Source of the DNA: Pseudomonas sp. PSKL.D1
Lineage (GTDB): Bacteria > Pseudomonadota > Gammaproteobacteria > Pseudomonadales > Pseudomonadaceae
Direction of reading: 5' to 3'
Length of the DNA: 64,000 bases
Assembly (NCBI RefSeq): GCF_028898945.1
Contig: NZ_CP118607.1
Span: 4,202,001 to 4,266,000 of the forward strand
In this document: in pieces, positions 1 to 44,497 of the stretch
Numbering within the stretch: position 1 is the first letter of the stretch
Layout of the letters: every line of letters starts with the position of its first letter
Made by a program: the position numbers and the translations under genes
Notes under the pieces: model-generated
The model's database searches: none
Seen by the model: the letters and a program-made list of their open reading frames with translations, nothing else
Told to the model about the DNA's origin: nothing

Positions 1-26
1 GGCTCTATCCTCGCTTTTGGACGCTT

Positions 27-500
27 ATGTCACTCAAGATCGAGGTAGCAGCGGCGCTACGCGGGATTCGCCAGCAGCGGCAACTGAGCTATGAAAATTT
101 GGCCGGTGGCTCGCTGCGCACGACGATCGGTGCTCTTGAGCGCGCCAAGGCTGGCGTGACACTCGACAAGCTCCATGAGATTGCCGCAGTACTCGATTTC
201 GACCTGGTGACGCTTATGGCTCTGTGCGTGGGCCTAAAGGACGGCAAGGAGCCTCAGGCTGTATTAGAAGCAGCCATGCAGGAGCTTGAGGCGTTCGAGG
301 CATCAGGTGGCGCCGAACTCGTCCAAGCGCAGCTCAAGGACGGCCAGCTTTCTTCTCGATCGGTCGGCAAGCCGAAGAAGGTGCGTAATCAGGATGCTGT
401 CCTGGCGCTCAAGGCGCAGGGGAAGACGCCTGCTGAGGTTGTGGAGGTTCTGGGGTTGTCTCGTACCACGGTGAGCAGGTACTGGCGTTCTGGCGAGTAG
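27..500 (+). CDS. Two-HTH transcriptional regulator, cargo operon gene 1
   Basis: This is a 157-aa protein with two predicted DNA-binding parts. Residues about 5-65 look like a Cro/CI (XRE) helix-turn-helix: an RGIRQQRQLSYENLAG helix pair, then a region ending in LDKLHEIAAVLDFDL. Residues about 115-155 look like a resolvase/Hin-type HTH (ALKAQGKTPAEVVEVLGLSR). The middle is acidic and helical. It is the first gene of a plus-strand operon, 64 bp before a caspase-like peptidase and upstream of a trypsin-like protease, so it is probably the operon's repressor or switch. The promoter is not visible because only 26 bases precede the ATG. The function is inferred from domains only. Confidence 0.75.
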   Translation: MSLKIEVAAALRGIRQQRQLSYENLAGGSLRTTIGALERAKAGVTLDKLHEIAAVLDFDLVTLMALCVGLKDGKEPQAVLEAAMQELEAFEASGGAELVQAQLKDGQLSSRSVGKPKKVRNQDAVLALKAQGKTPAEVVEVLGLSRTTVSRYWRSGE

Positions 501-564
501 TCGCACGTCTGTCTAATACCAGGAGCGTCAGTATCGTGCAGGATTGGCTTCGGAGGAAATCGCT

Positions 565-1476
565 ATGGAAAGTCGAAACTTCACTCTCAGGCGAAGTGGT
601 AACTCGCCTGCAAACGCAATCCTGACCATCAGTTGTCTGAGCCCAGAAGACCTGCAAACTGGCAGGACGCGCTTGCAGGGGCTTCATGATTTGCTGCTTG
701 AGTTAGACGCAGGTCGGTTTGAATACAACCGAAATTTCGCTCATCTCTTTGAGGCAGAAAGTTCTGGAGCTCTTAGCGCGACCTTCCAAGAAATCTATGA
801 AGTCTGTGACATTGGAATAGATCCAATCTTATTCATAGATGGTCATGGAGATGAGCTTAAGGGCATGCGGATGCCTAATGGAGAATGGGTCAGTTGGAAG
901 TCGCTGCTTGAACACTTCCAACCCATGATTGATCGAACCAGAGGACAATTGACCGTCATCATTGCCGCCTGCCACTCCATGGCAGCAATCAAACATGTTG
1001 ACTCAAACAGAAAACTTCCATTTTCGTTTTATTACGGTTACCCCTCAGAGATATCAGCCGGGGTTGTGCAGGACGAAACTGAAAAAATCTACCGCAGTCT
1101 TTTACTGGATCATGGAAAAATATTAGTAGACGAACATCGCTTAAGAATTGAGTGTTTCTCTGAATACGATCATTTAACACCCGCTCTTGCGCCTGCTCTT
1201 CTACTCTCCAAATCCCCTACGCTGTCTGCTCAAACCCAACCCGAGCTTTCACGCAACGAGATCAATAAGTACATATCAGTTGAGATGGCTCGGGCTGGAA
1301 GGCCGGTAAAAGGTACTAGGCACCGTATAAATGAAATACTGGGATCAGGGGCTTTGGCAGTGCAGATTGCTAGAAACCTTATGCACGATACTGAAAGGTT
1401 GGAACGCGTGATTGAAGATATATATGCATTCATGAAAGGGGGGGCCCTGCCACCGCTTCCCAACGATTCGGACTGA
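565..1476 (+). CDS. Caspase-like (clan CD) cysteine peptidase, cargo gene 2
   Basis: I read this as a caspase/CHAT-like fold. The hydrophobic strand PILFIDGHGDE carries the catalytic-type His94, and LTVIIAACHSMA carries Cys136, the classic HG ... ACHS arrangement with the usual spacing of about 40 residues. The C-terminal 100 residues have no motif I recognise and include an alpha-helical tail. The open frame extends upstream to a TTG at 544, but ATG565 is preferred because GGAGG at 552-556 sits 8 nt before it, giving 303 aa. The gene is more AT-rich than its neighbours, a sign of separate origin. It lies between an HTH regulator and a trypsin-like protease. Prokaryotic caspase-like proteins often act in abortive or regulated-death defence; that role here is inference. 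Confidence 0.72.
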   Translation: MESRNFTLRRSGNSPANAILTISCLSPEDLQTGRTRLQGLHDLLLELDAGRFEYNRNFAHLFEAESSGALSATFQEIYEVCDIGIDPILFIDGHGDELKGMRMPNGEWVSWKSLLEHFQPMIDRTRGQLTVIIAACHSMAAIKHVDSNRKLPFSFYYGYPSEISAGVVQDETEKIYRSLLLDHGKILVDEHRLRIECFSEYDHLTPALAPALLLSKSPTLSAQTQPELSRNEINKYISVEMARAGRPVKGTRHRINEILGSGALAVQIARNLMHDTERLERVIEDIYAFMKGGALPPLPNDSD

Positions 1477-1562
1477 GCCCTACGTCAGCAAGTGGCGACG
1501 CTTAGTTGGACGAAAGGCGTTGGAGAGAAGGAAAGCAGCCAACCTTAGCCAGGAGAATCAAT

Positions 1563-2378
1563 GTGACGGATTCAGAGCAGTACATGTCAGAGAGCGAGTT
1601 TACGGACATGATGCTGGGTCATGTACACCCGGTGATCCTCAGCAGTGAGCATATTGATGGGTATTATTCACATGGAGGCATAGGGACTGCCTTTGTCTTG
1701 GAGTTCTGCGGCGAGCTCTTTGTCGTAACGGCCCTTCACGTTCTCAGGAACCAGTTCGCCACTCATGACGAATTGCGGATCTTGCTGCGCAACGCCCCGC
1801 TCTCCATCCTGTTCGACCTCCGCGCAGTATTCCGGGATGAGTCAGACCCCGACCCGGATTCAGACTTGGTGATTTTACGAATCGTGAAATCTCAGCACGC
1901 CGAGTTGTATGCGGCAGGGCTTGTCAGTCTTGACGCTGCCGAGTGCGCCTTTATCGAGGACTACAGCCGCGCTGAAAGCTTTGACGTTTTTGGCTACCCA
2001 GAGACCGGACGATCGTACGACTACGAAGAGAACATCCTGGGATCCCAGTTACGTTGGCTTAAGGGGGAACTCACAGAGTCCACAGTTCAAGGCCTTTGTA
2101 CCCTAAAAATCAAAGGCCAACGCCCGGGCGATTTCAACGGCATGAGTGGTTCATTGGTCATCGCCGACGTGGATGGCCTAATGAGGTTCGCCGGCCTGGT
2201 GACGCTGGCAAGTAATGAGGGTGGGATATTGAACTTCATTCCTGCAGAGAAAATAGTGCACCATTTGGACGAAATGTTACGCATGGAGTTGGCGGGGGTT
2301 GTGGAAGCTGAGGATTCGGGCTCTGTGGATCGGTCGATGGATGGGGTCTCCGATGGTACCAGAGAGAGCCCGCGATAG
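1563..2378 (+). CDS. Trypsin-like serine peptidase (S1/PA clan), cargo gene 3
   Basis: Residues that fit a catalytic triad are present. Counting from GTG1563, His59 lies in VVTALHVL, Asp101 in DSDLVILRI and Ser195 in GDFNGMSGSLVI, matching the TAxHV ... DxAxL ... GxSGS pattern of the trypsin fold. No signal peptide or transmembrane segment is visible, so a cytosolic location is likely. The frame is open from a TTG at 1506, but GTG1563 has AGGAGA (1551-1556) six nt upstream; ATG1584 is another option. The protein is about 271 aa. It follows the caspase-like gene by about 86 bp, probably in one transcript. One protease may activate the other, or both may act on a common target. Substrate unknown. 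Confidence 0.75.
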   Translation: MTDSEQYMSESEFTDMMLGHVHPVILSSEHIDGYYSHGGIGTAFVLEFCGELFVVTALHVLRNQFATHDELRILLRNAPLSILFDLRAVFRDESDPDPDSDLVILRIVKSQHAELYAAGLVSLDAAECAFIEDYSRAESFDVFGYPETGRSYDYEENILGSQLRWLKGELTESTVQGLCTLKIKGQRPGDFNGMSGSLVIADVDGLMRFAGLVTLASNEGGILNFIPAEKIVHHLDEMLRMELAGVVEAEDSGSVDRSMDGVSDGTRESPR

Positions 2379-2500
2379 AGTTTGCTAAAGTCCTTTAACA
2401 ATTGGCGGGCTCGCTGCTTTCTCGCTGCTTTACAGTGCGAACCTGTCAAGCAGGCTGTGATCCTGGCGTATCTAGGTATCCAACAAATCGATCCAGTAGT

Positions 2501-3814
2501 CTATTCCCCTGGTTCACCCTTTGACTGGTCGTCAAATATCGGCGCCTCCAAAAACTGCTGGACACTCTGATCGGGATTGCTGAACAACTCGTTTACATAG
2601 CCCTCATGGGCGAGCAAAAGCACCCGAGCAAGATCAAGGTAGTGATTGTAAGTAGTAATAATGTGCTTGTGGCCCATCTGCTGCTTCAGGACTTGCATGG
2701 CCGCAGCGTCACGCACTTCACTCAGCTCCCCCAACAAAGCGCTTTTGAATCGCCGGATGAGAAAAATAGTCGGCCACCAATGGCGCGCATCATAAAAGCG
2801 GAGAGACTTTCGAATAGAGGGATCTAGCCTCCTAGCTCGGGTCTTCGCATCATTGGAGCGGCCCGATATCATCTTGCGCGTAACGGGAACACCACGGGAA
2901 TTCAAAAACAATTGTGACGGAGGACAAGGCTTACCGTATTTCTTGGCATATAGTGCAGCACGCTCTGGATATAGGGTCTTGATATAATGGTCGTCCAATG
3001 CCTTTAAATCTAATCGATGTATTTTTATTGTACGACTCTTTTTACCTTTGCTATTAGCAATATGATAATCGACAGTTTCGTCAACAAAGGTCATATTTTC
3101 ATAGGGCATAATATGCTGATTCCTCCCCGCGCCGGCGTAAGGAAAGCGACAGAGATCTACTGGCCGCATAGCTGTGCCTAGAGAGAGTTTGAAGATCGCG
3201 GCATATACAGGATCAGAGTAACCCAAGATCAAACAAGACATTTCATAATTGGTGGGCAAGGTATAGGATTGATCTTGAAGAATCTCGCGATCCAAAGCGC
3301 GGATACCCTTGCCATCCAATACCAACCGCGCCCTCGTTTTAATATGAGCTAAAAGCGCCTCGTCTTTAAAATTGGGCTGCCATGTTTTGTACCTGAACGA
3401 TACGCACGACGTATAACCAACCTTTTTTAGCCACTCAAAAAAACCATAAACAAGCATCCCGTCTTGAATAATGGTCTCAGTACTAGGCCTGGTCGACTGG
3501 GCTGCAACGCGATCAATAGCCCTTTGGATTTGCCAATTTTTTAAATCCTGGTTGTCTACCAGGGCATGGTAGCTGGTCACTGAGACATCTTGGTACTTTT
3601 CCAAAGTCGATAGATAGCGGTAAAATTTTGATAGGACGTTTGAGTATCGATTGGAAGTATCAAGAGATGCACTGAGTTCCTTGAGATAAAGATTTACGTG
3701 ACTCAGCATCACCATCGTTTTTTTCACGTGTGCAATGATGATGTAATGGGTACAGATCTGCCCTGGCGTCAAGGCACAAATATAAGTTAATACTCTTCGT
3801 GTGATCGTAATCAT
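2501..3814 (-). CDS. Tyrosine recombinase, last gene of the recombination module
   Basis: This is a 437-aa integrase-like protein. The C-terminal catalytic part shows Arg217 in LGTAMRPVDL, a YDAR344HW box II in which the usual His is replaced by Tyr, MGH382 and the candidate nucleophile Tyr392 in TTYNHYLD, ten residues after the His rather than the common nine. Residues about 35-135 fit a core-binding (SAM-like) domain. The ATG at 3814 directly follows the TGA of the upstream gene (TGAATG), suggesting translational coupling. Internal methionines at 33 and 35 are possible alternative starts, because the first 30 residues look unconserved. It acts with the three genes upstream in the same operon, presumably in integration and excision. 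Confidence 0.88.
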   Translation of the reverse strand: MITITRRVLTYICALTPGQICTHYIIIAHVKKTMVMLSHVNLYLKELSASLDTSNRYSNVLSKFYRYLSTLEKYQDVSVTSYHALVDNQDLKNWQIQRAIDRVAAQSTRPSTETIIQDGMLVYGFFEWLKKVGYTSCVSFRYKTWQPNFKDEALLAHIKTRARLVLDGKGIRALDREILQDQSYTLPTNYEMSCLILGYSDPVYAAIFKLSLGTAMRPVDLCRFPYAGAGRNQHIMPYENMTFVDETVDYHIANSKGKKSRTIKIHRLDLKALDDHYIKTLYPERAALYAKKYGKPCPPSQLFLNSRGVPVTRKMISGRSNDAKTRARRLDPSIRKSLRFYDARHWWPTIFLIRRFKSALLGELSEVRDAAAMQVLKQQMGHKHIITTYNHYLDLARVLLLAHEGYVNELFSNPDQSVQQFLEAPIFDDQSKGEPGE

Positions 3815-4795
3815 TCAATCACCTTGAGCTATCCTGAATACGGTTACCTTATCGTAGCCGTCGGTTATTGACGGATACGGCTCCTTAATCGCTGCCTTGC
3901 GTTCAAACTCAGGCACCTGCTTGAACATGAAACCGTGCTGAGCCTTGGTGACTGCTTCGCTATCGCAATAAGGGGAGTAAACTTCTAACGGGCTTGCCCC
4001 GTGCAACGAGCGTAGAAACTCTTGTGTCTCGACGCGGGTAAATACTGGCAGGTTGACCACTAGCACAGACGACGAAGAACGCGCAAAAAACCGCTCAACA
4101 AACTTATCAAATGAGCACAGATAGCGTTCCTGGAATACAACAACCCTGATGGTGCCATGCCTCAGGATCTTCAAAATCTTGTTCTGCATCTTATCTAGTG
4201 CCTCATGCTTTAGCTTGAGGTACGCTTCGACATCCTGGGATTCAGAGAAATTTGATATAGCCTCCGACATGTTTGGCTTGAAGACCTGAACACGCTCATT
4301 ATCATCCGGCCCTGGCAAGAGCGGATTGCTAGAAGCTTGAAGATCAAGCGCCTGATCCAGTTCCAACTCGGTGACTTGGCGTTTCAACAATTCTACATGG
4401 AGGGATTTTCTCTTTAGCTCTTTGGTGAGTTCCTTCGCCCGATGCGTTAAAATATCACTTTGCATGAGAGATGTTAGCAAATTGCCTTCGAAGTCCCGAA
4501 ATCTGGCGTCCTCGGTAGACTTAAGCAGTTTGATCTCGGATTCAAGATTACGCACCAGTTTCTGGGTCTGCATAATCACTTTAGATGTATCAATCCCTTC
4601 CCGAATGAGCAGCTCATCAATGGCACGGTGCCCGGTAATGTAGGGTTTCAAATGCAGGTAATTCTTGTGGAATGCCTGGCGGGAGATGCCTACCCGCTCA
4701 GCGACCAGCTGAATGGTGAGCGCTTCCGGGTCGTCATTCAGGAAATGCTCGCAGATCGCTTTTATTATCCGTCCCTCAGTATCTGCGACGCTCAT
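3815..4795 (-). CDS. HTH/coiled-coil DNA-binding accessory protein of recombination module
   Basis: This is a 326-aa protein. Residues about 5-60 form a TetR-like helix-turn-helix (ALTIQLVAERVGISRQAFHKN). Residues about 75-150 are strongly heptad-like and predict a coiled coil (KLVRNLESEIKLLK and following, then LKRKSLHVELLKRQVTELEL). The C-terminal part from about 200 has no motif I know. No tyrosine-recombinase residues are present. It lies between two recombinase genes, 23 bp from the upstream one and touching the downstream one. Multi-recombinase elements commonly encode one small non-integrase DNA-binding partner (TnpC of Tn554, the fourth gin protein of GInts). I infer the same role, organising the recombination complex or controlling directionality. 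Confidence 0.65.
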   Translation of the reverse strand: MSVADTEGRIIKAICEHFLNDDPEALTIQLVAERVGISRQAFHKNYLHLKPYITGHRAIDELLIREGIDTSKVIMQTQKLVRNLESEIKLLKSTEDARFRDFEGNLLTSLMQSDILTHRAKELTKELKRKSLHVELLKRQVTELELDQALDLQASSNPLLPGPDDNERVQVFKPNMSEAISNFSESQDVEAYLKLKHEALDKMQNKILKILRHGTIRVVVFQERYLCSFDKFVERFFARSSSSVLVVNLPVFTRVETQEFLRSLHGASPLEVYSPYCDSEAVTKAQHGFMFKQVPEFERKAAIKEPYPSITDGYDKVTVFRIAQGD

Positions 4796-4818: not shown

Positions 4819-6957
4819 CTAGCTGTTTAGATTTTTTGAGGAAGTAGCCTCAGAGCTAACGACACGCCCTGTAAGCTCTCGAAGGAGACGCTCATTGATA
4901 TCGATCTTGTCTTCAATTTGACTCACTGCCTCCAATTTGAGTCTTTCCCGGTTGATCAAGAGAGAACGATAAAACTTCAAGTTATGCTCGATCGCATCTT
5001 TGGAGCCTTGAAGAATTATGTTGTGCTCACATTGAATATGGCAGCTTGAAAAGTCTGGGGCTGTTGGGAAAATGAGGTCGCGCCTGGACTTCAAGCAAGG
5101 GGGCAGATCATCATCGGAATCGTAGCGATGTGATAAGCACATGGTACCAAGCGAAGTGCGTTGAATTCTGAGTACTGATCCGCCTTCGAGCAGATGGCTG
5201 ACGTACTGCATAATCGTCGTTTTCAGCACAGTGCCGCCGAAGTATTCAGGGCGGCTCTCTACCTGGGTTGCAATCCGATGCGCAGCTTCGCCTGCATAGA
5301 CCCCAGTGTGGATGGCCTGCACTACGTTGACGAAGTCTTCTGCGAAATGCTCCCTGAGGGTTTCTACTACGGATGAGACGATGAAGGGGTTACGGGCAAT
5401 GTAGCGGAGTGTCATTACATAGGAGCTGTGCCCGAAGATCATCCTGATGACGTCAATATTGGCTTCAGACTCATGGATCAATAGCTCGGCAATCGTTTTC
5501 CGGAACCGATGAACGTGCAGTTGAGGCAATCCTGTTTCCCTGGCGACATTCCTAGCCACCGTATCAATCATCCTATCGGTGAGGTTCATTTCAACGTTGC
5601 CGAGAGCAGGCTGAAAAATATATCCTTTAAGATAATTATTTCCCACTTTCCGCAGGCTCTCGAACGTTTCAATAGCCTCACCCAAATAATCGGGAATTGT
5701 AATGAAATCCGGATCCCCATGATAATTAGGATCACTACTGGTTTTATACCTAGAAAAATAAACGCGCCAGACACCATCCTTACCTTTGATGACGTCAGAA
5801 AATTTAAGGGGAGCAAGCTCTTTTCTCCGCATGCCCGTCATCAAACAGAACAAAATAAAAACAGCATTACGCACTCGATCGATTGCGTATTTGTACTTCA
5901 ACCGCCAAGTATAAGAAAGCTGGACATATTTGCGACGCTCGCCACTTTTCATTTTATAAAGTTGAAAACGCTTTCCTCGTCCAAATCCTAAGACCTCAAC
6001 CCCTTTGACCTTCTTGCCCAAGACACTTTCGAATTCCGGGTCTGGGCGCGAGGTCAAATAGTGCGCGTCTGTTATTAGAGACCTCAACTCCAAGTAGTTT
6101 TTTGCATCTACTATCAGAGGCATGGCCTCATCGATCCAAAAAAAAGCGTAACCCAGAAGAGTTATTAATTCATCTTCGGAATATGGTTTCCAACCAACGA
6201 ATGCGGAGCTAATCACATCAAGAACATCTTGCCTTCTACTGGCAGTATCAACCAGGGAAGCATCGACCTTGAGCGAGTATTCTGGCGGCAACAAGCCTTG
6301 ACTGGACAGCGTCAACCAAAAGTTAATATAAAAAAACATCATATTGTAAGCATGTGGCGACCCTTCGCGCTTAACGGTATCAAGGGCCTCATTAAGCATG
6401 CTGTCGCCAATGATTGAAATGGACTCCGCCGATCCGTCTAAATGATTAGCTTCAAACACATATGTCTGAATATGCTTGAACGAGTCGGCATAATTCTGAG
6501 AAGACACAAAACTTCTGATTGTACCGAATGGGTTAGTAGCTGGAAGAAGATAGTAGGAAATGGCACGCTTAAGGGGTTGCAGGTCTTCGGGGGAGTTATC
6601 GATGATGATGGAAATTTCGGTGAACTGACCAGCTTCGAGCAGTACCCATCTGCCATTTTTATACAACGAATAGGGAGAAATCGGAAAATCACCATCCGGA
6701 CTAGCAGCCAACTTGACGTTCAAATTACCTTTTCGCTGACGAGAATAGTCTTGTTTCTCATCCTCAGATGAATCACCCTCAAACTCTTGAAGAAATTCAT
6801 CGTAGTCGCCATCCTCCGCAGCGGAGCCACCACGCCCATGGGAGGTTTCATACAGTTCTTCAAAGTAAGCTTTAGCTGACTCCCGAGATTCCTCTTCAAT
6901 TTCCGCCATGAGTTTGACAAAGTCATCGTTTTCTTTTTCTTCATTTGCGGACTTCAT
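4819..6957 (-). CDS. Large tyrosine recombinase with complete catalytic residues
   Basis: This is a 712-aa integrase-like protein and the best-conserved catalyst of the module. It shows Arg377 (LMTGMRRKEL), Lys405 (SRYKTS beta-hairpin), His483 and Arg486 (HVHRFRKT), His510 (IFGHSS) and the nucleophile Tyr519 (MTLRYIARNP), nine residues after the His. The first 80 residues are acidic and probably disordered. A Cys/His-rich tail (Cys607, Cys621, Cys639, His640, Cys643, His645) could bind zinc. The gene starts 2 bp after its upstream partner ends. It is much longer than a phage integrase (about 350-400 aa), as is typical for the middle protein of Tn554- or RIT-type systems. Confidence 0.92.
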   Translation of the reverse strand: MKSANEEKENDDFVKLMAEIEEESRESAKAYFEELYETSHGRGGSAAEDGDYDEFLQEFEGDSSEDEKQDYSRQRKGNLNVKLAASPDGDFPISPYSLYKNGRWVLLEAGQFTEISIIIDNSPEDLQPLKRAISYYLLPATNPFGTIRSFVSSQNYADSFKHIQTYVFEANHLDGSAESISIIGDSMLNEALDTVKREGSPHAYNMMFFYINFWLTLSSQGLLPPEYSLKVDASLVDTASRRQDVLDVISSAFVGWKPYSEDELITLLGYAFFWIDEAMPLIVDAKNYLELRSLITDAHYLTSRPDPEFESVLGKKVKGVEVLGFGRGKRFQLYKMKSGERRKYVQLSYTWRLKYKYAIDRVRNAVFILFCLMTGMRRKELAPLKFSDVIKGKDGVWRVYFSRYKTSSDPNYHGDPDFITIPDYLGEAIETFESLRKVGNNYLKGYIFQPALGNVEMNLTDRMIDTVARNVARETGLPQLHVHRFRKTIAELLIHESEANIDVIRMIFGHSSYVMTLRYIARNPFIVSSVVETLREHFAEDFVNVVQAIHTGVYAGEAAHRIATQVESRPEYFGGTVLKTTIMQYVSHLLEGGSVLRIQRTSLGTMCLSHRYDSDDDLPPCLKSRRDLIFPTAPDFSSCHIQCEHNIILQGSKDAIEHNLKFYRSLLINRERLKLEAVSQIEDKIDINERLLRELTGRVVSSEATSSKNLNS

Positions 6958-6959
6958 GC

Positions 6960-8939
6960 TTAATCCTCTACGTAAGCGATTAATGACTTCAGATCGACAG
7001 GAAGAAGAACCTCGTATTTGCTTCTATATAGGCTTGCAGATTCCAACAATGATCTGTTTTTTAACTTATCAACAAGATATTTGAGTACTTGAATCTCATC
7101 CGCGTGATCATCATGTGCACCTGGATCCCGCTCTACTAAAATTTCAAGTATTGCTTGGCGCTCCATCAAAAACGGAAGAGAGTCTTCCAGCACGCACCAC
7201 TGTTCGCAGCCATTGCATTTATCTAAACGCGTACAGCGAGCGCCGGAAGGCAATTCTTTACTACCAGGGTACGAGGGCTGGGTAGAATCCAAGCACGCCC
7301 AGAGCGGCCTCTCATGGCCGATCAACGTGAATATCCTGAACCTCGGATATATCGACTCCTGAGCGATAGGCTTGCCCATTAATCCCTTGAACAGGCCTTC
7401 TTGACCCTTCTGGATAAATCGCTGCTGGAAATCATGGAAACGCGTCCTACGTCCTGCCATCGCCGATACCGAGCTGTCGTAATGGTTGTCGGTGGTAACA
7501 GAGTCGGCGTGACCGTATAACAGGGCAGTAAGAGCTATGGGCTGACGGCGCTTGTTTTTATTGTTCTGAAGGGACGTAACGCGCAATCGTGTTGAGAGAC
7601 TGTCAACGTTCACAAGGGGCTCTCCGTTTTCCACTAGCTGCGCCCTAGCCAAAAAACGTTGAACGCCAGCCTGCCAGTGGCCCGGAGCATCCAAACTAGA
7701 TAGCCGATCACCTGGAATCCAAGGTTGCACTGGGTCTTGAAAAAATAAAAATGGAGTTTGATGTCGCTTATCATCAACCTCAATACTTGGGTCGAGCTTT
7801 AAGTATCCTCTGCAGCTCTCCGAGAGATCGCAAGCTAGACGAATCAAATTGTAACCAGAATAGGGGTCAGTTCGGCTACTAGAGGTAACCATGGTTTTAG
7901 GACTGATGAATGACTTGCCCTGGCCTTGTGACCGAGTTTTAGTTGATATGACCACCACCACACCCTCTTTCGCTAACTCGGACATAGGGTGGACAAATCT
8001 GTCTTTATCCAGCGCAAGCACAGTCTCTTTATTCCAACCCAACTGGCGCTGGGTAAACAGAGCGAGAGTTGCTTGATCAGTAGCAGTAGGGTACATCAGC
8101 TTAAATAAATCTCGAAAACTAATGCAACCAGGCGCCCGCCTGCGCAAATAGGCACGATCTAAACAACAAGACAACACAAATTCCAAGGGCGTTCTACCAA
8201 TGGGGCTAAGACCACCGACGCTCGCATCGTAATAGAGGCACTTCATCAAAGCCGGACGAATATAAAAAGGAAAACCGTGGTATTGGAGTGTAGCGGCGGC
8301 TTTCAACGGATCAATTGCCCATGTTGATAACTTACCATATCCCAAACTCAGTAAATCGCGGCTTATCTCCCATACTTCCCAGCTGTCATATGGCTTAGTA
8401 ATGTGTACCGCCCGTTGAAACGCAAGTTTTTCTCGCAACAGATCGACTTCTCGGCACATAGCTTTGTACAGATCATCATCTGTTTGGTCTGACAGCGGTT
8501 CAGCTGGATTGAACTTTGGTTCCTCGATCACTGGCAGCTTCAACGCTGGCATACCATCTTCAAATCGGCGTGCCACATGTACAAAAGCTGACTTCAAACG
8601 TATAGCTAAGTAAATTCGAAAATTATTCCGTAGCAAATAATCTTCAAAGCGTTTGTATTCTTCAGCTCCGATATCATTGAGAGATGAAATTTTTAGTGCG
8701 GGAATAATGTTTGAATTATATCCAGTCGCAAAATCGAGAAATTTATTGATGGCCATCCGTAACTCATAGCCCTTGGCATTCGTTGCCATGCCCGCGCCTC
8801 GAACAAAGACGTAGTGCAGACCAGAATGCAAAGGGATTGAGAAATCGAAATCTGGCCGTTCCAGATAGTTGGATGAGATGACGACCTGATCCGTGGAGGT
8901 GGCGCTTGTTTCACTGCGATACATGTGAAGGTATCGCAT
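6960..8939 (-). CDS. Degenerate tyrosine-recombinase-like protein, first gene of the module
   Basis: This is a 659-aa protein whose region 450-490 matches the end of a tyrosine-recombinase catalytic domain: TRLRVTSL with Arg453, LYGH477ADS, and Tyr487 in VTTDNHYDSS, spaced as in the 437-aa partner. The box I arginine is not evident; the corresponding segment near 295-310 reads QRQLGWNKETVLAL. The box II His is also missing. A cysteine cluster follows (Cys569-x5-Cys575-x2-Cys578-x3-Cys582), a likely zinc ribbon. It lies 8 bp downstream of the element's tmk and 2 bp upstream of the 712-aa recombinase, so all are probably co-transcribed. It may be a structural or target-recognition subunit rather than a full catalyst. 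Confidence 0.78.
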   Translation of the reverse strand: MRYLHMYRSETSATSTDQVVISSNYLERPDFDFSIPLHSGLHYVFVRGAGMATNAKGYELRMAINKFLDFATGYNSNIIPALKISSLNDIGAEEYKRFEDYLLRNNFRIYLAIRLKSAFVHVARRFEDGMPALKLPVIEEPKFNPAEPLSDQTDDDLYKAMCREVDLLREKLAFQRAVHITKPYDSWEVWEISRDLLSLGYGKLSTWAIDPLKAAATLQYHGFPFYIRPALMKCLYYDASVGGLSPIGRTPLEFVLSCCLDRAYLRRRAPGCISFRDLFKLMYPTATDQATLALFTQRQLGWNKETVLALDKDRFVHPMSELAKEGVVVVISTKTRSQGQGKSFISPKTMVTSSSRTDPYSGYNLIRLACDLSESCRGYLKLDPSIEVDDKRHQTPFLFFQDPVQPWIPGDRLSSLDAPGHWQAGVQRFLARAQLVENGEPLVNVDSLSTRLRVTSLQNNKNKRRQPIALTALLYGHADSVTTDNHYDSSVSAMAGRRTRFHDFQQRFIQKGQEGLFKGLMGKPIAQESIYPRFRIFTLIGHERPLWACLDSTQPSYPGSKELPSGARCTRLDKCNGCEQWCVLEDSLPFLMERQAILEILVERDPGAHDDHADEIQVLKYLVDKLKNRSLLESASLYRSKYEVLLPVDLKSLIAYVED

Positions 8940-8947
8940 GGCGGCAC

Positions 8948-9583
8948 CTACGCGAGTTTCGCCAGCAGAGCATCCACTTCGGCAAGCACGTTTGCACTCA
9001 CAGCATCGAAGGGCTGAGAAGCGTCAATCACTACGAAAGTGTCTGGTGCCTCTTCTGCTTGCCGCAGGAAGCCTTCACGGGCTCGTGTCAAAAATTCCAG
9101 CTTTTGCATCTCCATACGATCTAGCCCTTCACCACGGGACGCCACTCGCCTCATCCCGATCTCCGGATCTACGTCCAGGATGATATTGAGGTTCGGGGAA
9201 AAGCCCTCAAGCGCAAAACCGTTGATGCTCTGCACCAGGCTTAGGGGAATCCCTCTTCCGTAGTGCTGGAACGCTACCGTCGCGGGAGTGAAGCGATCAC
9301 ACACCACTACCTTACCGGCCTGGATCGCTGGAATGATCTTTTCTTTCAAGTGCTGAGCGCGAGCAGCAGCAAACAGAAGCAGCTCAGTCGTATCGCAAAG
9401 CTCTGGGGTCTCAGGATCGAGCACCACGCTCCGGATCTTTTCACCGATACGGGTTCCGCCAGGCTCGCGAGTCACGAGGTAGGAATGGCCTCGTGAGTGG
9501 AGAAACTCTTCGATGGCACGGATAACCGAAGACTTACCTGCCCCGTTATTTCCGTCACATACGATCAGACAGCCTTGCGCCAT
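8948..9583 (-). CDS. tmk: Element-encoded thymidylate kinase (replacement for host tmk)
   Basis: The product phosphorylates dTMP to dTDP, an essential step of dTTP synthesis in the cytoplasm. The 211-aa protein has all family motifs: P-loop G11NNGAGKSS19, TREPGG at 38-43, CDRF with Asp96-Arg97, and an arginine-rich lid (RR145-146, Arg150, LDR156). It differs strongly from the usual Pseudomonas protein, whose start (SGLFITLEGPEGA) survives at 9807-9848. It therefore looks acquired with the island rather than native. AGGA at 9592-9595 serves as ribosome site for ATG9583. It reads in the same direction as mltG and the host tmk remnant, and 8 bp separate it from the recombinase operon. It presumably keeps the host alive after the element destroys native tmk. 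Confidence 0.93.
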   Translation of the reverse strand: MAQGCLIVCDGNNGAGKSSVIRAIEEFLHSRGHSYLVTREPGGTRIGEKIRSVVLDPETPELCDTTELLLFAAARAQHLKEKIIPAIQAGKVVVCDRFTPATVAFQHYGRGIPLSLVQSINGFALEGFSPNLNIILDVDPEIGMRRVASRGEGLDRMEMQKLEFLTRAREGFLRQAEEAPDTFVVIDASQPFDAVSANVLAEVDALLAKLA

Positions 9584-9625
9584 TCGTTTGTCCTAGTGGC
9601 TTTGGTGGAGGGGGCATTGGTTTAC

Positions 9626-9654
9626 ATCGTGGTAGAAGAGAATGTAATCGTCAA
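9626..9654 (-). promoter_or_regulatory. Possible promoter for the tmk-recombinase operon
   Basis: On the minus strand TTGACG (9649-9654) could be a -35 box and CACGAT (9626-9631) a weak -10 box with 17-bp spacing, 43 bp or so before ATG9583. Repeat copy 9618-9646 overlaps the spacer and the -10, which would allow the repeat-binding protein to repress. The -10 matches poorly, so transcription from the upstream mltG operon is an equal possibility. Confidence 0.3.
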
Positions 9655-9689
9655 GTCCACACCCTCCCTTTCTGACCGCAGCCCCATAC

Positions 9690-9718
9690 CCTCTGATTTT
9701 TGCTTTCGGGCTCAGAGG
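9690..9718. repeat. Short inverted repeat in the element end
   Basis: CCTCTGA (9690-9696) and TCAGAGG (9712-9718) are perfect inverted 7-mers around a 15-nt T-rich loop, lying between two of the composite repeats. It may be a further protein site or a weak hairpin. Role unknown. Confidence 0.4.
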
Positions 9719-9791
9719 ACTTGGTAGGGAAGGATAGCTTTGGTTTACATCGCACAGCTACTGAATATATTTTTTCTGGTTTACATGGAAG

Positions 9792-9848
9792 TCAAAGCGA
9801 ATATAACGCGCCTTCGGGGCCTTCCAGGGTAATAAACAAGCCGCTCAC
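9792..9848 (-). pseudogene. tmk: 5' remnant of host tmk, interrupted in the P-loop
   Basis: Reading from GTG9848, nine bases after the mltG stop, the frame encodes (M)SGLFITLEGPEGA, the canonical start of Pseudomonas thymidylate kinase up to the alanine of the P-loop GPEGAGKST. The next native codons should read G-K-S-T. Instead the frame enters LYSL and stops at TGA 9794-9792. Host sequence ends at 9807 and element sequence starts at 9806. Position behind mltG is exactly where tmk lies in pseudomonads (mltG-tmk-holB). The rest of native tmk and holB should lie past the left end of the island, outside the window. Confidence 0.93.
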
Positions 9849-9857
9849 AGGCAGTCC

Positions 9858-11015
9858 TTAATGTTGTTCGTCTGGCGCTGGCGCTTCAGCCGGCGCTGGA
9901 GATTCGCCTGACGGCAAGGCCTGCTGCGCATCAGGCTCCGGGGCATCAACAGCCGGCGTCTCGACCGAATCGGTCTGGCCCTGGGGCGCAGGGCTCGAGC
10001 GATAGTCTGCCCGCCGCTTGAGCTGGAATTCGCGCACTGCCGAGTTGTGATCGTCCAGGTCATCGGAGAACACATGGCTGCCGTCACCACGCGCAACGAA
10101 GTAAAGGCTGGTGCCGTCGGACGGGTTAAGCGCTGCATGGATAGCCTCGCGCCCGACCATGGCAATCGGCGTCGGCGGCAGGCCGGTGATGGTGTACGTG
10201 TTGTAGGGCGTGGGCTCACGCAGGTCGGCGCGGGTAATCCTGCCGTTATAGCGCTCACCCATGCCATAGATCACGGTAGGGTCGGTCTGCAGCATCATGC
10301 CCAGGCGCAGGCGCCGCACGAACACGCCGGCAATCTGGCCACGTTCCTGGGGGATACCGGTTTCCTTTTCCACCAGAGAGGCCATGATCAACGCCTGATA
10401 AGGGTCGCGATACGGCAGGTCGGTGGTGCGCTCGGCCCACTCCTTGGCCAGCACTTCGTCCAGGCGCATATAGGCTTGCTGCAGCAGCTCCACATCACTC
10501 ATGCCGCGCACGAAACGGTAGGTATCCGGGAAAAAGCGCCCTTCGGGGAACACGCCGGTATGGCCAAGCTTGTCCATCACCTCGGTGTCGGACAAACCAT
10601 CAAGGGTATGCTTGAGCTTTTCATGCTTGGCAATCGCCGAGCGCACCTGGCGGAACGTCCAGCCTTCGACCAGCGTCAGGTTGTACTGCACCACGTCGGC
10701 ACGGCGCCAGGCATCGAACAAGTCTTCCACGGTCATGCCAGGCGTCAGGCGGTACTCACCGGTATGCAGCGGCGTGCCGGCCATGTTGAAGCGCCAGTAC
10801 AAGCGCAGCCAGACGGCATCATCCAGCAGCCCTTCGCTTTGCATGCGGTAGAACATGCGGTTGGGGTTTGTACCGTTGGGCACGTCCAGCAGGCGTTCCT
10901 GCGCCACGTGCAAAGGTTGCTCCAGGACCGAGTTGAGCTTCCAGGCCGACCAGCCCAAGGCCAGGCCGGCAAGGATCAAGCCCATTTCCAGCAACAGCAG
11001 GAGTTTGCGTCTCAC
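9858..11015 (-). CDS. mltG: Endolytic peptidoglycan transglycosylase MltG
   Basis: The protein is a YceG/MltG-family lytic transglycosylase that cleaves nascent glycan strands at the inner membrane and helps set strand length. One N-terminal membrane anchor (residues about 3-25, LLLLLEMGLILAGLALG) precedes the YceG domain. The conserved segment ASLVEKETGIPQERGQIAGVF contains the catalytic-type Glu, and QTDPTVIYGM follows. The last 50 residues are Pro/Ala-rich and look disordered. GTG11015 is chosen because it follows the pabC stop by 4 nt; the frame stays open to a TTG at 11045. The product is 385 aa. It is the last intact gene of the host operon before the island interrupts tmk. Confidence 0.93.
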   Translation of the reverse strand: MRRKLLLLLEMGLILAGLALGWSAWKLNSVLEQPLHVAQERLLDVPNGTNPNRMFYRMQSEGLLDDAVWLRLYWRFNMAGTPLHTGEYRLTPGMTVEDLFDAWRRADVVQYNLTLVEGWTFRQVRSAIAKHEKLKHTLDGLSDTEVMDKLGHTGVFPEGRFFPDTYRFVRGMSDVELLQQAYMRLDEVLAKEWAERTTDLPYRDPYQALIMASLVEKETGIPQERGQIAGVFVRRLRLGMMLQTDPTVIYGMGERYNGRITRADLREPTPYNTYTITGLPPTPIAMVGREAIHAALNPSDGTSLYFVARGDGSHVFSDDLDDHNSAVREFQLKRRADYRSSPAPQGQTDSVETPAVDAPEPDAQQALPSGESPAPAEAPAPDEQH

Positions 11016-11019
11016 GAAT

Positions 11020-11835
11020 TCAGGTATCCAGTAACGTACGGGCAACGGCCTGCAGTTTACGGGTGAGCGGGCCCGGCGACCAGTTTAGCTCGGCGTGGCC
11101 GCGCACCGGCCAAATGCCATAAACACTGTTGCACACAAAAACCTCATCGGCCTGCGCCAGCTCTTCAAGCATCACATCACGCACCTGCGTTGAGATGCCT
11201 AACGCTTTTGCCTGTTCCAGCAATGCGCTGCGCATCACGCCGGCGACACCGCATCGATTGAGGTCAGCCGTTACCAGCACGCCATCGCGCACCAGGAACA
11301 GGTTGCTATAGACACCCTCGATCACCCTGCCCTGCCCGTCCTGCATCAAACCTTCAGCATGTTCACTGCCCTGCCACTCGGCACGGGCCAGCACCTGCTC
11401 AAGGCGGTTGAGATGTTTGAGGCCGGCCAGCAAGGGTTGTTCCCCAAGCCGGGTCTGGCAAGGGTACAGCCGCACACCCTGTTCGGCATGTTCAGCCGGG
11501 TATTCTGGCAGCGGCCCGCCTTGCAGGATGCGCCGTGGCGGCACACCTGCAACCGGGGCATAGCCACGCTGGCTATCGCCGCGAGTCAGGATGAGTTTGG
11601 CAACGCCGTCACCCAACTGGCTGGCAAAACGCAGGACCTCGTCGCGCACCAGCGGCATGTCGGCGTTGATCGCCAACCGCTCGCACCCCAGCGCCAGGCG
11701 AGCCAGATGACCTTCCAGCAAGCTGGGGCGGCCAGCACGCACGGCGATGGTCTCGAAAAGACCATCACCGTAGGCCAGGCCCCGGTTCTGCAGGTTGACC
11801 GCAGTCGCAGGCTGGCCATCGATCCAGCTATGCAT
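11020..11835 (-). CDS. pabC: Aminodeoxychorismate lyase
   Basis: This PLP enzyme of fold type IV converts 4-amino-4-deoxychorismate to p-aminobenzoate and pyruvate in folate synthesis. Family signs are the N-terminal NRGLAYGDGLFETIAV block, the Lys in LKHLNRLEQVLAR that carries PLP, and EGVYSNLFLVRDGVL. The ATG at 11835 overlaps the fabF stop (TGATG), so translation is probably coupled. The 271-aa length is normal for the family. The placement between fabF and mltG is the standard gammaproteobacterial order. Confidence 0.95.
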   Translation of the reverse strand: MHSWIDGQPATAVNLQNRGLAYGDGLFETIAVRAGRPSLLEGHLARLALGCERLAINADMPLVRDEVLRFASQLGDGVAKLILTRGDSQRGYAPVAGVPPRRILQGGPLPEYPAEHAEQGVRLYPCQTRLGEQPLLAGLKHLNRLEQVLARAEWQGSEHAEGLMQDGQGRVIEGVYSNLFLVRDGVLVTADLNRCGVAGVMRSALLEQAKALGISTQVRDVMLEELAQADEVFVCNSVYGIWPVRGHAELNWSPGPLTRKLQAVARTLLDT

Positions 11836-43934: not shown

Positions 43935-44010
<76 letters not shown>

Positions 44011-44096
44011 AATTTGAAGCTTTACCGCTAATCGGCGTGAAGCGCCTTTACGACCTTCACCACCACTGCACCGTGCGAACGCCACAGTATTTAAAC

Positions 44097-44172
<76 letters not shown>

Positions 44173-44175
44173 AAA

Positions 44176-44251
44176 TGGCGTCCCCTAGGGGACTCGAACC
44201 CCTGTTACCGCCGTGAAAGGGCGGTGTCCTAGGCCACTAGACGAAGGGGAC
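44176..44251 (-). tRNA. tRNA-Glu (TTC), copy 1
   Basis: A 76-nt cloverleaf starting GTCCCCTTCGTCTAGTGG, anticodon loop CTTTCAC with TTC, ending GGGGACGCCA. It is 3 nt from tRNA-Gly copy 2. Confidence 0.97.
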
Positions 44252-44343
44252 ACACAACACTTTTCAGTGCACCAGCACATGAACCTCACGATTCAGACTG
44301 GATTTTCTTTTCCTGCCCCGCCGTTAAGCGCTGCCGGAGAAAC

Positions 44344-44419
<76 letters not shown>

Positions 44420-44421
44420 AT

Positions 44422-44497
44422 TGGCGTCCCCTAGGGGACTCGAACCCCTGTTACCGCCGTGAAAGGGCGGTGTCCTAGGCCACTAGACGAAGGGGAC
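44422..44497 (-). tRNA. tRNA-Glu (TTC), copy 2
   Basis: Second identical tRNA-Glu, 2 nt from tRNA-Gly copy 3. The Glu-Gly pair is therefore duplicated as a unit, with one more Gly at the end. It is the promoter-proximal gene of the operon. Confidence 0.97.

Follow-up and report, generated by a model that had tools for sequence, protein, structure and literature searches.

A presumably site-specific element that splits tmk and likely rescues its host with its own thymidylate kinase

How does a cell live on when tmk, its essential thymidylate kinase gene, is cut within the codons of the P-loop? We met this question in a 64,000-nucleotide stretch of Pseudomonas sp. PSKL.D1 (hereafter the window, to whose numbering plain coordinates refer), from a genome that is complete in a single contig of 5.88 Mb (G000). 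Next to mltG (9858..11045, minus strand), the chromosomal flank upstream of tmk, the native gene starts with a GTG at 9848 and continues for 14 codons (VSGLFITLEGPEGA, 9807..9848, minus strand) to the P-loop (GPEGA), after which its frame reads LYSL and then a stop. An earlier interpretation made from the letters of the window alone (the sequence-only reading) had placed the interruption by element DNA in the P-loop codons at 9807, beside mltG, and we confirmed this. It had also predicted the other junction, which is indeed present 46.5 kb leftward: the tmk 3´ part restarts at GGCAAAAGC (GKST; GKSTNRD) at G000:C1:4165340, minus strand, and is followed by holB. The two 6-bp spacers at the junctions are separated by 46,460 bp, and the window holds just the final 9.8 kb of the element.

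We think it very probable that this is a site-specific, tmk-splitting element that rescues its host by its own thymidylate kinase. In this view, an integrative element whose recombinase module comprises four genes would have entered tmk at the P-loop codons, a site presumably chosen by the recombinases, and destroyed the native kinase; the element's kinase, the first gene inside the end behind mltG and in the same direction, would supply dTMP kinase activity and let the cell survive. The island kinase would thus be active and essential, and the cell would now depend on it. The split gene, both of its junctions, the intact second kinase, the occurrence in four genomes, the co-inheritance of recombinase and kinase and the matching pattern in related elements all support this explanation.

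The intact second kinase (8948..9583, minus strand) is, as had been described, a complete and divergent tmk in the same direction. It encodes a full-length dTMP kinase of 211 aa, and the gap between it and the tmk fragment, given earlier as 209 bp, measures 223 bp. The protein scores 160.2 bits with PF02223 and 171.8 bits with the dTMP-kinase equivalog TIGR00041 (cut-off 83.25), and its Walker A motif is GNNGAGKS. A comparison with solved structures returned 35 matches, every one named thymidylate kinase. Transcription may reach the gene as read-through out of the mltG operon; a search of 9500-9950 gave no terminator-like site.

The sequence-only reading knew of no precedent for this strategy, but Wirth et al., 2023 (PMC10653934) already report a tmk-splitting island with an essential dNMPK in Pseudomonas putida KT2440. 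According to that article, the island kinase PP_1964 is essential, unlike either half of tmk. The kinase gene resisted deletion and the upstream half of tmk did not; PP_3363 is dispensable; and an attempt to rejoin tmk failed as well. It also reports tmk-splitting islands from other Pseudomonas, Acinetobacter, Psychrobacter and Halomonas, terms the tmk locus a landing site and mentions stand-alone kinases in other bacteria similar to a case described below. The KT2440 island resembles the window element in that tmk is split between mltG and holB and the kinase gene adjoins the junction, and its four other genes (a TetR-type regulator, two tyrosine recombinases and one unknown) match the window module by their description. 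The two differ in site (codon 14, in the P-loop, in the window versus about codon 98, a 294/339 bp split, in KT2440), in the side on which the module end lies (mltG versus holB) and in the kinase, a PF02223 thymidylate kinase in the window and a PF21448 dNMPK in KT2440. The available part of Wirth et al., 2023 describes dNMPK cases only, with no PF02223 kinase and no P-loop site, and does not contain the word addiction. We found no other description of a tmk-splitting island in the literature searched. Target-gene replacement is therefore known, and the variant with a P-loop site and a PF02223 kinase was not found in print. The essentiality of the island kinase, experimental for the KT2440 relative, would apply here by analogy.

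A second intact native tmk elsewhere, which the sequence-only reading had named as the case that would overturn it, was sought in the complete genome and not found. The PF02223 proteins of G000 comprise two strong matches, the island kinase and the tmk 3´ remnant, and one weak paralogue at G000:C1:2329771. The premise of the sequence-only reading that tmk is single-copy also held: a strong PF02223 match turned up in 36 of the 37 other relatives searched, always a single one save in G776, which has two in an assembly that is 81% complete and 4% contaminated, and the remaining genome, G003, has the weak paralogue only. The presence of the weak paralogue in G000 counts against the proposed explanation, but it is most improbable that this protein provides the kinase activity. 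It scores above the PF02223 cut-off (31 bits), and a genome without strong tmk (G003) has a similar one, but it falls far under the dTMP-kinase equivalog cut-off (34.1 bits against 83.25 for TIGR00041), such matches are common in genomes with an intact tmk, G003 carries a dNMPK besides its weak paralogue, and PP_3363 of KT2440, dispensable according to Wirth et al., 2023 (PMC10653934), is probably the counterpart of this protein.

Could the native tmk instead still function, either as two separate parts or by starting anew at the far junction, with the island kinase as mere cargo? The 3´ piece keeps an open frame and is undecayed, with 84% identity to a full-length relative over 195 aa, and the 3´ pieces of the window genome, Pseudomonas sp. 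NFR16 and the more distant host G1087 all stay open, joined to element DNA in frames of 268, 302 and 254 codons. However, the Walker A motif GxxxxGK[ST] is absent from all three fused frames, the 5´ piece is just 14 codons long, and in KT2440 the upstream tmk half can be deleted and the island kinase cannot (Wirth et al., 2023, PMC10653934); the open 3´ frame may reflect a recent insertion or coupling to holB. We regard this alternative as very unlikely. The element's own DNA now precedes GKST, and on this evidence the insertion appears to have destroyed the native kinase.

The distribution of the module was surveyed by searching with protein C, a tyrosine recombinase of the element, or with its profile. 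Matches were obtained in 15 of 398 genus, 1 of 369 class (its own), 4 of 390 order and 12 of 353 family genomes; these sets overlap, and 27 distinct genomes carry the module at E <= 1e-20. One scan of genome contigs gave NFR16 as the sole match. The module lies inside tmk in 16 of the 27 genomes. Four of these insertions, from two families, share the break in the P-loop: the window, G152 (NFR16, same genus), G1087 (other family) and G1385. The other twelve lie near codon 98, after CDRFT (G323, G096, G262, G252, G325, G172, G287, G386, G382, G1248, G1377 and G1401), and these sister elements share the site region and the PF21448 kinase of the KT2440 island. The reading covered both junctions for three P-loop insertions (the mltG side only in the fourth, G1385) and for nine of the twelve near codon 98 (the holB side only in G1248, G1377 and G1401). 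The module end faces mltG in the P-loop type and holB in the codon-98 type.

Three close modules lie outside tmk (G214, G228 and G246), with tmk intact in each. The remaining eight modules (G101, G784, G1081, G1190, G1227, G1247, G1264 and G1280) are distant and were excluded from the site comparison; the contexts of six (all except G1190 and G1280) contained no match to tmk or kinases, and tmk, checked among these genomes in G101 alone, is intact there. No tRNA target was found in seven loci with modules outside tmk. By eye, the module in G246 seems to stop directly at the 3´ terminus of a gene, which we take to be BI-1/YccA-like; no target emerged for the G214 and G228 modules.

All 16 tmk insertions have a kinase gene just inside the module end, PF02223 in the four P-loop elements and a T4-type dNMPK in the twelve at codon 98 (PF21448, found in nine by whole-genome search and in three by tblastn in the locus; G1385, G1248, G1377 and G1401 were outside the whole-genome kinase search). 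No PF21448 protein was detected in the P-loop genomes G000, G152 and G1087 or in the tmk-intact genomes G214, G228, G246 and G101. The gene order, kinase and then four mobility genes, is the same in the window and the 12 dNMPK elements. Since a cell hit by an element that lacks a kinase would die and so escape observation, the 16/16 pattern shows need and not design or intent.

In phylogenetic trees, the four P-loop recombinases form one clade (support 96/99), as do the four P-loop island kinases (100/100), apart from native kinases; identity is 57-84% within the clade of island kinases and 39-44% with native kinases. These observations together indicate that the kinase travels with the element. 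G1087 joins the P-loop elements in both trees despite its host of another family, and its native tmk remnant falls outside the island-kinase clade. In the recombinase tree the codon-98 modules do not form a single clade, and two modules from elsewhere group with G1401, though without strong support (83/90).

These relationships bear on whether the element is now immobile, an old insertion with a fixed, captured kinase and relic recombinases. No close copy of the module was found in plasmid or phage records (protein C had no match among 50,697 phage records, and its plasmid matches reach at most 29% identity over 43% of the protein), and the NFR16 counterpart of one module protein (437 aa in the window) aligns in two frames (L024:2600-3921), possibly from a frameshift. 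All four module genes are open in the window, however, and diverged elements, with protein C 61% (NFR16) and 39% (G1087) identical to that of the window and with sizes of about 46.5, 104 and 20-21 kb for three elements, have hit the same codon in different hosts, with both trees uniting G1087 with the other P-loop elements across host families. We therefore consider immobility unlikely, if less so than the two alternatives discussed above.

The module itself begins behind the island kinase with protein B (6960..8939, minus strand; 659 aa), which matches no Pfam or NCBIfam family. Its R-L-R...G-H...Y boxes are like those of an atypical tyrosine recombinase, and we would guess from them at a recombinase fold; a profile comparison of B with C gave E 0.13 and a probability of 0.5%. 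Protein C (4819..6957, minus strand; 712 aa) is a PF00589 tyrosine recombinase in which R377, H483, R486, H510 and Y519 are invariant across six sequences. A 326-aa protein (3815..4795, minus strand) has a weak TetR_N match (18.9 bits, cut-off 24) and co-located homologues at 18 other loci of close modules. The 437-aa protein (2501..3814, minus strand) has a borderline Phage_integrase match (26.2 bits, cut-off 27.1) and likewise co-located homologues in close modules. Cargo occupies 1..2500 and continues left of the window to the far spacer, the tmk 3´ piece and holB.

The element ends were read by eye. The terminus at 9774..9806 (minus strand) carries a core repeat, TTATATTC, followed 20 bp inward by an arm-like motif, ATGTAAACC, and the far end mirrors it from G000:C1:4165347 onward (TAATATTC ... 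ATGTCAACC). The ends are imperfectly inverted with one 6-bp spacer per junction, as checked for the window ends: GGCGCG at the module end (9807..9812, minus strand), equal to the tmk codons Gly-Ala, and GGCACC at the far end (G000:C1:4165341-4165346). GC content at the far end is 41% over 161 bp and 45% over 361 bp, against about 60% in the flanking chromosome. The module-end spacers of the four P-loop elements (GGCGCG, GGCGCG, GGCGCA and GGCGCC) always encode Gly-Ala and vary in the third base, and the same six bases read GGCGCC in 18 and GGCGCG in 3 of 33 intact kinases. The far-end spacers of three P-loop elements are GGCACC, GGCACC and GGCGCA. Should the far spacer be a record of where an element sat before, the P-loop elements passed from one tmk to another. 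Nine codon-98 elements have six bases at the module end that fit tmk codons and six at the far end that do not; a simple tmk-to-tmk history predicts otherwise, and this counts against the proposed explanation. Visual inspection of the module ends in L025, L026, L027, L030 and L035 also turned up, in several codon-98 elements, promoter-like boxes (GTTTAC - about 17 bp - TATA(A/G)T) directed toward the tmk remnant and holB.

Two described groups of elements share features with this organization. Strand-biased circularizing integrative elements (SEs; Idola et al., 2023, PMC10214605) likewise cluster several genes of recombinase type at one end and have imperfectly inverted repeats at their termini and 6-bp spacers, for which the reported rule is that the six bases are native at the gene end and foreign at the far end. 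A strand-biased circle and the absence of a remaining empty site are further SE traits. By gene map, the SE order is intA-tfp-intB-srap, whereas the window has B-C-TetR-like-437 aa with the kinase in front and the TetR-like gene in place of srap; the article does not mention tmk. The second group, the GInt islands (Bardaji et al., 2017, PMC5385486), is similar in its variable cargo, imperfect direct repeats, 6-nt staggered exchange and outward promoter driving the split gene, and perhaps also in its three putative integrases with a small DNA-binding-type protein. A short AT-rich far end is another GInt trait, to be set beside the GC values given above. Their gene order and sizes differ from those of the window module by description, and beside ginABCD (three recombinases and a small HLH protein) the window has C with PF00589, the 437-aa protein as a borderline match and B with no family. 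Target-gene replacement is not reported for GInts, and the words tmk and kinase are absent from Bardaji et al., 2017.

How firmly would replacement bind the element to its host? The sequence-only reading took the P-loop target to be invariant in all hosts. The stretch is well conserved at the DNA level, but not to an extreme degree: its 21 bp rank 28th of 607 windows across 22 genus rows and 87th of 607 across all 33 rows, and the corresponding ranks of the codon-98 site are 288/607 and 107/607. Because the module-end spacer equals two tmk codons, Gly-Ala in all four elements, precise excision would restore a plausible P-loop: with GGCGCG or GGCACC remaining between the flanks, the loop would read GPEGAGKS or GPEGTGKS, and the cell might survive a clean loss. 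Death of the cell would then be expected only if the element lost its kinase end, and dependence on the island kinase may in this way help to retain the element, a form of addiction. By analogy, KT2440 would speak both ways on this point: the kinase there is undeletable, yet rejoining tmk failed too.

One genome, G003, has no strong tmk and no module at E <= 1e-20, and carries between mltG and holB a stand-alone dNMPK in reverse orientation to its neighbours (L130, G003:C1:4539769-4552521). This fits the end stage of lasting dependence on a replacement kinase; it could alternatively be an independent replacement. We offer more tentatively, as an idea that may well not hold, that one element family twice made essential tmk its landing site, with recombinase specificity and replacement kinase inherited as a unit (P-loop with TMPK, codon 98 with dNMPK). 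The host enzyme would be swapped and any loss except precise excision would be lethal, a toxin-free stabilisation that would end in kinase-only cells like G003. Replacing the essential gene that was destroyed is in any case no single accident of P. putida KT2440, as related modules do so at two tmk sites, with two unrelated kinase families and in at least two bacterial families. A testable question arising is whether target-gene replacement serves as retention without a toxin-antitoxin pair. A further caution concerns the status of tmk as a target for antibacterial drugs and a supposedly invariant core gene: it can be mobile and come from another source.

The P-loop-type kinase is rare, occurring in 2 of 398 genus genomes, and no free-standing copy was found in these genomes beyond the two element carriers (E <= 1e-55). 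Among the proteins listed in a broader comparison, 52 of 120 are at least 80% identical over nearly the whole query, several of them named dTMP kinase and from Pseudomonas species, suggesting from sequence similarity that the lineage extends beyond the genomes sampled here. We also considered a phage source, but the matches of the island kinase in 304 phage records are all below 60% identity and do not show one. Extra TMPK genes occur also without an element, which counts against the proposed explanation: G246, with tmk intact, has a second strong PF02223 protein (135.6 bits) on another contig (L077, G246:C181:28384-44953), with no module of this kind in the surrounding 16.6 kb.

Several further features of the cargo and the window were recorded. 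Near the far end (G000:C1:4165929-4169773; L004:5929-9773), a protein with Cap4 nuclease and HamA domains is followed by a DEAD-box helicase, a pair that we take to resemble the Hachiman defence pair. A UmuC/ImpB-like frame at G000:C1:4191193-4192161 (L005:11193-12161) matches IMS from profile position 96 of 148 and is perhaps truncated. Elsewhere, the window contains a cluster of five tRNA genes at 43935-44497, in which Gly (gcc) and Glu (ttc) alternate.
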